A DNA stretch of 43,248 bases, taken from Methanobacteriota archaeon. GTDB taxonomy: Archaea; Thermoplasmatota; Thermoplasmata; RBG-16-68-12. Both the position numbers and the translations under genes were made by a program. The notes under the pieces are model-generated. The model did not search any database and had not been told where the DNA came from. It saw only the letters and a program-made list of their open reading frames with translations. Shown one piece after another: positions 5,296-34,015 of this stretch. The stretch lies in the NCBI GenBank assembly GCA_005879065.1, contig VBLU01000005.1:1-43248 (forward strand), read 5' to 3'. How positions within the stretch are numbered: position 1 is the first letter of the stretch; the number at the start of each line of letters is the position of its first letter.

Positions 5296-5916
5296 CTACG
5301 CTCCCAGAGGCGACGTCCCCCGTCTCAGGACCTTGGCTTGCTTCCCGGAGAGATCGACGACGGATGACTCGCCGCCGAGCGGCGTGGCCCCCCCATCGAT
5401 GTACAGGTCCACGTGGTCCCCGAGTTGCTCTCGGGCCGCCTCGCACGTGCGGGGAGCGGGCTGTCCATGCCGGTTCGCGCTCGTCGAGGTAATCGGACCG
5501 ATGGCCTTGGCGAGCAGGCGCGGAATCGGATGTCCCGGGATGCGCAGCGCGACTCGCCCGTCCCTCGACACCATCGGGGGTGGTGCTTGCGCGGTCGCCC
5601 GGAGGACGACCGTGAATGGCCCCGGCAAATTCTTCGCGCAAAACGCCTGCGCGATCGGAGTCGGATCTCCGAACCGAAAAATGTCGGCGATGTCCGCGAC
5701 GGCCATGGACACTGGCTCGTCGCGCGGCCGCGACTTCGCCGCGAACAGGCGGTCTACCGCTTTCTCCTGGAACGGGTCCGCACCGAGGCCGTAGGCGGTG
5801 TCCGTCGGGTACACGACGAGTCCGCCTCCCCGGAGCACGTCCCGAATTCGGTCCAGCGCGCGCGCCTCGAGCAGATACTTGGTGCCCAACGACTGCGCCA
5901 CGATTGTGGTCGCCAC
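5296..5916 (-). CDS. Sua5/YciO/YrdC family threonylcarbamoyl-AMP synthase
   Basis: 206 aa; GGLVVYPTDTAYGLGADP, KSRPRDEPVSMAVAD, STSANRHGQPAP. Confidence 0.93.
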   Translation of the reverse strand: MATTIVAQSLGTKYLLEARALDRIRDVLRGGGLVVYPTDTAYGLGADPFQEKAVDRLFAAKSRPRDEPVSMAVADIADIFRFGDPTPIAQAFCAKNLPGPFTVVLRATAQAPPPMVSRDGRVALRIPGHPIPRLLAKAIGPITSTSANRHGQPAPRTCEAAREQLGDHVDLYIDGGATPLGGESSVVDLSGKQAKVLRRGTSPLGA

Positions 5917-16461: not shown

Positions 16462-16916
16462 GGGCGCGCTCCTTGCCCGTCTCGGTCCCGGACTGCATCT
16501 TCTGCAGGATCGTCAAGAGAGAGGCACCCGCGAGCATCGTCTACGAGGACGAGACTACGCTCGCATTCTTGGACATCCGCCCGATGATCACGGGCCACAC
16601 CCTTGTGATTCCAAAGTCCCATGCCGCATACCTCGAAGACCTTTCGAAGGACAGCTCTGGACCCATCCTGGAAACCGCCCGGAAGGTCGCCGCGGCGCTC
16701 CGGCGCAGCGGACTGCCGTGCGAGGCGGTGAACCTGTGGCTCGCGAACGGGAAGGCGGCCGGCCAAGAGGTCTTCCACGTGCACTTCCACGTGTTGCCGA
16801 GATTCGGCGGGGACGGATTCGGGATCCGGGCTGGACGCGGCTACGGCAGGACGCCGGAACGAACAGAACTCGATGGCACGGCGGAAAAAATCCGTCGGGC
16901 GCTCGAGGATCAATGA
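16458..16916 (+). CDS. HIT family hydrolase
   Basis: 152 aa; CIFCRIVKREAPASIVYEDE, HVHFHVLPR HIT triad. Confidence 0.95.
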   Translation: MRARSLPVSVPDCIFCRIVKREAPASIVYEDETTLAFLDIRPMITGHTLVIPKSHAAYLEDLSKDSSGPILETARKVAAALRRSGLPCEAVNLWLANGKAAGQEVFHVHFHVLPRFGGDGFGIRAGRGYGRTPERTELDGTAEKIRRALEDQ

Positions 16917-17407
16917 GCAAAGCGCGTCCGAATCGATTCTAGCTCGGTCTCGGGGAGCCGCTCGCGGGCTGTGGGAAAGAGGCTCGTCCGCTCCTTGCGG
17001 AAGTGGTCCCATAGGAATTGGACGAGGAAGATGCCATGGCGGTTCGTCTCTTGGATCGCGGCCCAGGATGGATGGGCTTCCAAGTCTCGGCGGGCCGCCT
17101 TGAATTTCTCCACGCCGCGGCGAATCTCGTCGTGTTCGTAGGCGACCACGTTCACTAAGGTTCCATACCGGCCGATCGCCGCCTCGAGCGGCGGGAGGAT
17201 CGTCTCGTCCTCCGCCGCAAGGACCGGCAGCAGTTCGTCCTCGAAGAACCGAATCGATTCGTCCAGGATGATTCGATTCGCTTCGCGGGCCTCCCGCGTC
17301 GCGATCATCTCGTCGAGGGTCGCCTCGAGTTCCGTGAGCTTATCGACGAAGTCGGCGTGATCCCCGAGGAGTGTGTAGAAGGGATCGTCGTCGGAACCGT
17401 CGCCCAT
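16910..17407 (-). CDS. Hemerythrin domain-containing protein
   Basis: Starts at MGDGSDDDPFYTLLGDHADF within the long ORF; His/Glu spacing ..YEHDEIRRG.. and ..DHFRKERTSLFP. Confidence 0.75.
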   Translation of the reverse strand: MGDGSDDDPFYTLLGDHADFVDKLTELEATLDEMIATREAREANRIILDESIRFFEDELLPVLAAEDETILPPLEAAIGRYGTLVNVVAYEHDEIRRGVEKFKAARRDLEAHPSWAAIQETNRHGIFLVQFLWDHFRKERTSLFPTARERLPETELESIRTRFAH

Positions 17408-17445
17408 CGATGCGGCTAGCCGATGGGGGCGTAATAAGGGTGCGC

Positions 17446-18637
17446 CTATGGGGAAAAGCGCCCCGGAGTCCGCGGGAACGGCACCGCATCGCGGATGTGC
17501 CCGAGCTTGCAGATCCACTGAATCAACCGTTCCATTCCCATCCCGAAACCCGCGTGCTGCACGCTCCCGTATCGGCGGGAATCGAGGTACCATTCGTAGG
17601 CTCTCGGGTCCTCGCCTTGTTCCACCAGGGCCTTCTTGATCGCCTCCAGGTCCGTCTCTCGTTCGCTCCCGCCGACGATCTCGCCGACCCCGTCGCCCCC
17701 GATCACGTCGAACCCGAGGACGAGATCGGGATGCTTCGGGTCCCTCGCCTTGTAGAACGCCTGGGAGATCCGCGGATAGTGCGTCACGACGATCGGCTTC
17801 GACTTTCCTTCCGTCAGGGCGCGTTCCTCGAGGGTCCGAAGGTCCTTGCCCCACTCGAGATCGATCCCCTTCGCCTTGAGCAATTTCAGCGCTTCGTCGT
17901 AGGTCATCCGCTCGAAGGGAGGCTTCACGGCTTTCAGGAAGTCCGGCGTCCGGCCCATCGCGACGACATCGTCCGGACGTTCCTCCGCGACGCGCTGGCA
18001 CGTGTGGGAGATCACGCCCTCCGCGTGCTGGGCCGAGGTAGTAGATCTTCTCCATGGCGAGGACGAGGGCCTCCGCATAGAGTTGCCACGACTGGGTCAG
18101 GTAAGCCTTGCGGCCGAAATACTCCACCTCGAAGAGGGTGGCGCCGCCCTCGCTCCCCGCGGGCGTGATCATGGGTGGGGAGACCTCCCAGAATCCGTGG
18201 TCGCGGAAGTACTGGTGGACCGCGCCGAAGACCGTGTGACGGATCCGGAAGATCGTCGTCATCCTCTGGGAACGGACCCACAGATGGCGGACGTCGAGGA
18301 GGAATTCTTCGCTCTGATCCTCCTGGATCGGGAACTTCTCCGCGAAGTGGACGACCTGGAAATCCTCCGCCCGGACCTCGTAGCCTCCGGGCGCTCGCTT
18401 GTCCGCGACGACCTTCCCGCGGACGATGACCGCGGATTCGATGAGCGACTTCTCCGCAGCCTTGAAGGCCTCCGGGGAGACCACGTCCCGAGCGATCGCG
18501 ACCTGGATGGTCCCCGTCGCGTCCCGAACGACGACGAAGGCCTTCCCGCCGACCGTGCGCGTCCGGTAGATCCAGCCTCGCAGCTCGACGGCCTTGCCAG
18601 TATGGCGTCCCTTTAGGATTTCCTCGATGGAGACCAT
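17446..18637 (-). pseudogene. asnS: Asparaginyl-tRNA synthetase disrupted by frameshift plus missing motif 2 segment (pseudogene or assembly error)
   Basis: N-terminal part (MVSIEEILKGRHTGKAVELRGWIYRTR...MEKIYYLGPA) lies in one frame. The remainder (..EGVISHTCQRVAEE...GFGMGMERLIQWICKLGHIRDAVPFPRTPGRFSP) lies in another frame. The expected FRAE...RRHL.EF segment is absent at ~18030-18050. Confidence 0.82.
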
Positions 18638-18757
18638 GAACCCGGGTCCCATCCCGGTGGGTCTAGATTACTCTTTCGCGGTCTACCGAGGACGACACGG
18701 CGGCTGTAGGGGAGACCCGTGAAACTTCATAGATTGCGAGACTTACCCGGTCGGGGG

Positions 18758-20657: not shown

Positions 20658-21134
20658 ATGTACGGCGTCATCGTCTGCCCTCGATGCAAACGGGCCAAGG
20701 GCGTGGACCTGAAACAGAAGACGACGACCTGCGCGTGTGGATTTGAGATCCGAATCGCCCCGTCCCGGGTGCGGGCGCGAGCCGACACGGCGCGTGAACT
20801 GGCGTCGTTGGTGGGGCAAGTGAGCGCGGAGCTCGCCGGCGGACTCGCCGCATATCGGAAAGCCGCCACGCCCGCGCGCCGAAGGCGGTCCAGGGACGTC
20901 CACCTCCGGATCGTGGGCGTCGCATCAAAGCCGCACGATCGTGCGAGCCGGCTCCGGGCCGCCGCCGTCGAACTGACGAGAGAACTCGAGGTCTTCTCCC
21001 TCGAAGATTGGACGCGGGTTCTGGCGGGCCTGGGAATCGCGGACGCCGAAGGAGCCTTGGCCACGTTGATCCGTGCGAATCTGGTGATGGAACCGAAGGA
21101 CGGGTTCTACCGCGCGGTGAGCCTCAGCCCCTAG
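20658..21134 (+). CDS. Small zinc-ribbon archaeal protein with putative C-terminal winged helix
   Basis: 158 aa; N-terminal CPRCKRAKGVDLKQKTTTCACG. Confidence 0.65.
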   Translation: MYGVIVCPRCKRAKGVDLKQKTTTCACGFEIRIAPSRVRARADTARELASLVGQVSAELAGGLAAYRKAATPARRRRSRDVHLRIVGVASKPHDRASRLRAAAVELTRELEVFSLEDWTRVLAGLGIADAEGALATLIRANLVMEPKDGFYRAVSLSP

Positions 21135-29898: not shown

Positions 29899-29993
29899 GC
29901 CTGAGACCTCGCGTGGGGACGGAAATCACGGGGCATAGGAAGGGGTCCTAAAAGAGTTTGCGGGGTTGGAATCCAGTCATCGCCCCAACTCGA

Positions 29994-32268: not shown

Positions 32269-32790
32269 TCAGGGGAAGGATCCATCCGGATCGTACGGAT
32301 CATAAGCGATCCATCTCGTCCAGAACCACATTCGAACCACGGCCATCGCAACCCACGTGAGCACGAGACCGGCTGCGTAAAGTCCGAGGTCTGAATAGCC
32401 ACCGAGGCTCGACCGGATCCTGGCCGCTGCTCCCACGACAAGGAAGACTACCGTAGAAGCCCCCAAGATGAACGAGGCGAGGACCTCGGCTTCCAGGTGG
32501 CTTGGTGCCATGTGACCCGGCATTTTCTCTGGCCGAGGCGGGTAGAGGATTTCGTGTTTCTGCGCCTTCTTGCGGACCCGGTGCACATGGAGATAAGGAG
32601 GGATGAGCAGGGCCACAACGACCGCGGTCACCAAAAAGAAGCCCGGAGCGCCCAGGAAGAAACGGGCCACGGAAGCGAAGACCACGTAAGCGAACGCGCC
32701 CATGGCTAGCAGGACGAGGAGCAAGCCGATGCTTCGCGGCTTTCGCTTTGTGACGAGGGCCACGGCATTCCCATGACTCTCGCCGCTCAA
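32269..32790 (-). CDS. Hypothetical membrane protein
   Basis: 173 aa with several hydrophobic segments; no family recognised. Confidence 0.6.
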   Translation of the reverse strand: MSGESHGNAVALVTKRKPRSIGLLLVLLAMGAFAYVVFASVARFFLGAPGFFLVTAVVVALLIPPYLHVHRVRKKAQKHEILYPPRPEKMPGHMAPSHLEAEVLASFILGASTVVFLVVGAAARIRSSLGGYSDLGLYAAGLVLTWVAMAVVRMWFWTRWIAYDPYDPDGSFP

Positions 32791-32818
32791 AGGCCTTCCG
32801 ACGGAACGCCTTCAGCGC

Positions 32819-34015
32819 TCACGGACGCTCGATGATCATCGAGACCGCATTGCCACCGCCCAGACAGAGGGTCGCGAGACCGCGCTTGGCGCCGCGGTCC
32901 TTCATCGCGTAGGCGAGCGTCGTGAGGACGCGGGCGCCGCTGCAGCCAATCGGATGCCCGAGGGCCACTGCCCCGCCGTTCACGTTGAATTTCTCGTACG
33001 GAATCCCGAGCTCGCGCATCACCGTGACGCTTGCGGCGGCATACGCCTCGTTGTGTTCGAACAAGTCGATGTCGTCGACCGAGAGGCCGGTCTTCTTCAG
33101 GAGTTTCCGGACGCCGGCGATCGGCGCCTCCATGACCAGCTCCGGCTTCACCCCGACCGTGCCATAGTCGACGATGCGCGCGAGCGGCGTCACGCCGTGC
33201 CGGTCGGCGGCCTTCTCGGACATGACGACCATCGCCGCGGCGCCGTCGCTCAGCTGGGACGCGTTCCCCGCGGTCACCTGGCCGCCCTCCCGGAAAACGG
33301 GAGGTAGCTTCGCCAGCTTCTCCATCGATGTATCCGTGCGAATCCCCTCGTCGATCTCGACCCGACCCGCGCCGGGCACGTCGACGGGGAGGATCTGCTC
33401 CTTGAATCGCCCCTCCTGCGTGGCCGAGGCCGCGCGTCGCTGGCTCTCCAAAGCGAAACGGTCCATCTCCTCGCGCGTGACGTGGAATTTCTCCGCCACG
33501 ATTTCGCCGGTGATCCCCATGTGGTACTGGTTGTAGGCGTCCCAGAGGCCGTCATTCACCATCGCGTCGAGGAACGGCACGTTGTTGATCCCAATCCCCC
33601 AGCGGGCCTCTTTCACCAGATACGGCGCGCGGCTCATCGACTCCATGCCGCCCGCGAGCAAGACCTCCGCGGACCCAGCACGAATCATGTCGGACGCGAA
33701 CATGACCGTCTGGAGCCCGGACCCGCATACCTTGTTCACCGTCACCGCGCCGACGCGGTCCGGAAGGCCACCGAAGAGCGCCGCCTGCCGCGCCGGGTTC
33801 TGGCCGAGGCCCGCGGCGATCACGTTACCCATGAGGACTTCCTCGATGTCCGCCGGCACGAGGCCCGACCGATTCACCGCTTCCGCGACCGCGAGGCTCC
33901 CGAGGCGGACCGCCTCGACGTTGCGGAACGCGCGTCCGTACTTGCCCACCGGAGTGCGGCAGGCACCCGCCAGAATCACATCCGTCAGCGCAGAAACCCC
34001 CGCGACGGATGTCAA
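32819..34015 (-). CDS. Acetyl-CoA acetyltransferase / thiolase
   Basis: 398 aa; NKVCGSGLQTVMFA, NVNGGAVALGHPIGCSGARVLTTL, CLGGGNAVSMIIERP. Confidence 0.95.
   Translation of the reverse strand: MTSVAGVSALTDVILAGACRTPVGKYGRAFRNVEAVRLGSLAVAEAVNRSGLVPADIEEVLMGNVIAAGLGQNPARQAALFGGLPDRVGAVTVNKVCGSGLQTVMFASDMIRAGSAEVLLAGGMESMSRAPYLVKEARWGIGINNVPFLDAMVNDGLWDAYNQYHMGITGEIVAEKFHVTREEMDRFALESQRRAASATQEGRFKEQILPVDVPGAGRVEIDEGIRTDTSMEKLAKLPPVFREGGQVTAGNASQLSDGAAAMVVMSEKAADRHGVTPLARIVDYGTVGVKPELVMEAPIAGVRKLLKKTGLSVDDIDLFEHNEAYAAASVTVMRELGIPYEKFNVNGGAVALGHPIGCSGARVLTTLAYAMKDRGAKRGLATLCLGGGNAVSMIIERP

Follow-up and report, generated by a model that had tools for sequence, protein, structure and literature searches.

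When a gene as essential as that of asparaginyl-tRNA synthetase (AsnRS) turns up in two pieces in a draft archaeal genome, one question has to be settled: was it broken in the cell or in the assembly? The window considered here (the whole stretch of DNA that was analysed, 43,248 nucleotides) carries such a gene on its minus strand, at 17446-18652. ORF translation of the window places the gene in two frames that part at 18029/18030, with the following features.

18030..18652, minus strand: AsnRS N-terminal part, to KIYYLGPA, with the OB-fold anticodon-binding domain and the start of the catalytic domain
18652 or 18637, minus strand: AsnRS start codon
17446..18029, minus strand: AsnRS C-terminal part, in the other frame, with motif 3 (GFGMGMERL) and the PFPRTPGR end
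18029..18030, minus strand: AsnRS junction, 98 nt (motif 2 region) short as compared to all 25 aligned relatives
16910..18652, minus strand: spurious 580-aa open frame, made of the AsnRS N-terminal part, an out-of-frame translation and the downstream gene

The N-terminal part, read from 18652 down to 18030, ends ...LAMEKIYYLGPA, and the C-terminal part, read from 18029 down to 17446, runs ...HAEGVISHTCQRVAEE...GFGMGMERLI...PFPRTPGRFSP. For both halves the closest NCBIfam family is asparagine--tRNA ligase. Specifically, the N-terminal part matches positions 4-217 of NF003037 (E 1.3e-54), with the OB-fold and the start of the class II catalytic domain present, and the C-terminal part matches positions 243-449; taken individually, the halves stay under the curated AsnS cut-off (186 and 200 bits vs 414). 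On the Pfam profile PF00152, the N piece covers positions 2-99 and the C piece positions 131-307, while positions 100-130 are absent. The class II motif 2 (FRAE...RHL.E[FY]), found in 25 of the 25 aligned relatives, is missing from the window, and motif 3 (GxGxGxER) is present in the C-terminal part. Thus, an earlier note on this DNA, which had described AsnRS as broken at motif 2 and divided between two frames, with motif 3 and the C-terminus intact, is borne out by the translations, by the profile gap and by the alignment of the relatives; the possibility that its reader overlooked a continuous AsnRS frame was ruled out by the frame translation and the same alignment. As compared to the archaeal AsnS (NF003037/TIGR00457; structure 1X54), which both halves match best, the assembled gene is shifted in frame and is short of about 33 codons, those of motif 2 and of the residues next to it, a difference that we put down to assembly. 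The 580-aa frame is a product of the frame shift, an annotation trap and no real fusion. By eye, its C-terminal part, contributed by the downstream gene, resembles hemerythrin.

The comparison with related genomes defines the gap precisely. A DNA search of 60 of them found the AsnRS gene in most, and the matches within the genus and family were interrupted at an identical query position, where the relative carries extra bases. In the DNA alignment this extra stretch is exactly 98 nt (about 33 codons, close to the roughly 35 residues that the earlier note had given) in each of the 25 aligned relatives, the open frame being continuous through the site; since 98 = 3 x 32 + 2, the change of frame is accounted for. 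The closest relative, the sister genome G005, is 96% identical in DNA before the junction and 99% after it. Its full-length AsnRS scores 458 bits against the equivalog cut-off of 414, passes both AsnRS cut-offs and can be aligned over almost its whole length to 1X54, a solved structure of AsnRS, so that the comparison with sister genomes proposed in the note favours a continuous gene. The breakpoints share 2 nt only (CC). Relocation of the missing segment was ruled out, since a search of the window's genome with the sister's segment as query matched the flank only, and a repeat collapse was rejected because the junction is devoid of long repeats, the sister's breakpoints having just those 2 nt in common with it. 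Here we argue that the break is almost certainly a local error in the assembly of this metagenome-assembled genome of a soil Thermoplasmata archaeon, and that the organism itself most probably has an uninterrupted gene for an ordinary archaeal AsnRS, about 434 residues long.

The earlier note had left two branches open, a misassembly or a fresh pseudogene in an organism that uses an amidotransferase instead. In the latter case, a real and very recent deletion would have inactivated AsnRS, and Asn-tRNA(Asn) would be made by a non-discriminating AspRS together with GatCAB. The 2 nt shared at the junction are compatible with a natural deletion too, and no AspRS was found in the window's genome, which is only 74.5% complete. 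The amidotransferase route to Asn-tRNA(Asn) needs GatCAB. The search for it argues against this route: of 25 genomes of the order that were searched, among them nine with a completeness of 90% or more and a contamination of 5% or less, none yielded GatC, as against 12 of the 14 control genomes. The window's genome encodes a single GatB-like protein (a GatB_N match), and this is GatE (NF003107, 775.7 bits vs a cut-off of 456), a subunit of the Gln-specific GatDE enzyme. The same genome, at its completeness of 74.5%, yielded no second asnS, and every relative with a complete region has retained an intact AsnRS. Moreover, synonymous codon differences between the window and its sister outnumber nonsynonymous ones, by 20 to 5 in the N-terminal part and by 5 to 2 in the C-terminal part; being mostly synonymous in both halves, they indicate a gene that is not drifting. 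A fresh pseudogene thus appears very improbable. Most other genomes of the genus encode, in addition to AsnRS, a second full-length class II (PF00152) enzyme. G003, G004, G007, G009 and G011 have an additional shorter PF00152 protein, with an open frame of 337-376 aa, a size as expected for an asparagine synthetase of the AsnA/AsnRS-related kind.

How often, then, are such stretches missing elsewhere in the same draft? The window and 40 further contigs of its genome (G000) were compared with about 1.07 Mb of G014, a well-assembled relative that was used as reference in part; for the sister, 20 further contigs were taken. The count was made in a DNA-level scan, the protein-level scan being inflated by antisense-frame shadows of single deletions. 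Along the roughly 127 kb over which G000 aligns to G014, the scan counted ten net deletions with sizes from 74 to 115 nt (107, 104, 98, 77, 88, 74, 93, 115, 105 and 98 nt), or about one per 13 kb, eight of the ten not being multiples of three, and no insertion of comparable size was found in the same alignment. In coding DNA, indels of natural origin are biased towards multiples of three, comprise insertions as well as deletions, and leave essential genes untouched. Two of the ten, at or near gene starts (C12 and C38), could be natural. The 52 kb compared from the sister draft contain five net deletions, 57-125 nt in size; in the controls, G008 has one deletion (69 nt, a multiple of three) in 35 kb, and G003 has no such deletion in 16 kb. 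Besides the AsnRS junction, net deletions in G000 lie at the following sites.

C3: about 8906
C2: about 6110
C1: about 6071, 8220 and 8964
C7: about 11196
C22: about 5414-5440

The genes that are hit are telling. The ribosomal protein gene uS7, the sole copy found in G000, is split between frames by an 88 nt deletion and is whole in most relatives where it was found; SRP54 is broken within its GTPase domain by a 77 nt deletion, and PurL is broken twice, with losses of 104 nt and 98 nt. A deletion of 107 nt affects a methylenetetrahydrofolate-reductase-like gene (so named by eye) and one of 74 nt an aminotransferase gene; the gene of a long PKD-like protein is broken by a net deletion in the 74-115 nt range as well. 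Errors of one kind thus lie at sites where no living cell would survive them: uS7, SRP54 and AsnRS cannot all have been lost by a single organism, and if AsnRS were a fresh pseudogene, then uS7, SRP54 and PurL would have to be genuine pseudogenes alongside it. The recurrence of same-sized deletions in essential genes of the draft therefore argues strongly for misassembly, not biology, at the AsnRS locus as well. In another member of the genus, uS7 likewise lies in two frames (G007:C35 620-1113, profile positions 4-49 and 45-148).

The likely mechanism is that two contig ends were fused by the assembler over an unassembled stretch of 98 nt, with neither Ns nor the missing bases put in. We infer such unfilled joining of contigs over a short gap from the narrow size range of the deletions, from the absence of insertions and from the fact that the AsnRS breakpoints have next to no sequence in common. 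Elsewhere in the draft, two contigs contain scaffold N-runs of 75 and 114 nt, which match the deletions in size range. Several of the missing stretches, as judged from G014, contain 71-78% GC against 58-64% around the junctions; for AsnRS the values are 66% and 63%, so that a GC-related loss of coverage is at most a possible contributor to the gaps. The close relatives of the window's genome are soil metagenome-assembled genomes (MAGs) from the Angelo reserve, and the project behind the related MAGs used single-sample assembly with IDBA-UD and k-mers up to 200 (PMC6784897); the window's genome presumably comes from the same project and assembler as its nearest relatives. Local assembly errors, in which an unsupported consensus at local joins yields incorrect protein-coding sequences, are suspected of being a prominent feature of assemblies made with IDBA-UD (Chen et al. 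2020, PMC7111523). The AsnRS break resembles those errors in that a local join yields an incorrect coding sequence; it differs in that the error was deduced here by comparing related genomes rather than by mapping reads, and in that the net loss amounts to 57-125 nt per event.

The same error class shows up in the sister draft in the opposite direction, as the window is continuous where the sister contig G005:C174 is short: the latter lacks 64 nt at window positions 21023-21086, inside the ORF 20658-21134, and about 90 nt at 32776-32864, over the C-terminus of a thiolase. These losses, lying at other places than those of the window's genome, speak against a further alternative, namely that the deletion is real in some molecules only, as a minor variant or relic DNA from dead cells or a rare lineage, and was picked by the assembler. 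Soil metagenomes are mixtures of strains, and a deletion in a single molecule could be assembled at low coverage; natural deletions, however, are not expected to gather in a size range of 74-115 nt and at a rate of about one in 13 kb while insertions of that size are lacking, and this origin seems even less probable than a fresh pseudogene. It is just as hard to credit that motif 2 of AsnRS was genuinely lost and tRNA(Asn) is charged otherwise, with the other broken genes being independent errors.

Being almost certainly an assembly error, the break is a warning about this draft and that of its sister rather than a piece of biology. In the two drafts, conserved sequence is short of a stretch of 57-125 nt about once per 10-13 kb, and as a result numerous genes in this public MAG will appear as pseudogenes, split genes or false fusions. 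Accordingly, claims of gene loss or pseudogenization that are drawn from such MAGs require read support.

Two further differences between the genomes concern larger pieces of DNA. At window positions 29949-29966, the sister G005 contains an additional segment of about 820 bases, which includes a small ORF and is flanked by the imperfect direct repeats AGAGTTTGC(G/A)GGGTTGGAATC, of which the window has a single copy; this is possibly a natural, repeat-mediated loss or gain. In G014:C1, the ORF of a Hel308-like helicase (1159 aa) contains an intein-like insert of about 390 residues, and the copy in the window's genome (C38) is free of it.
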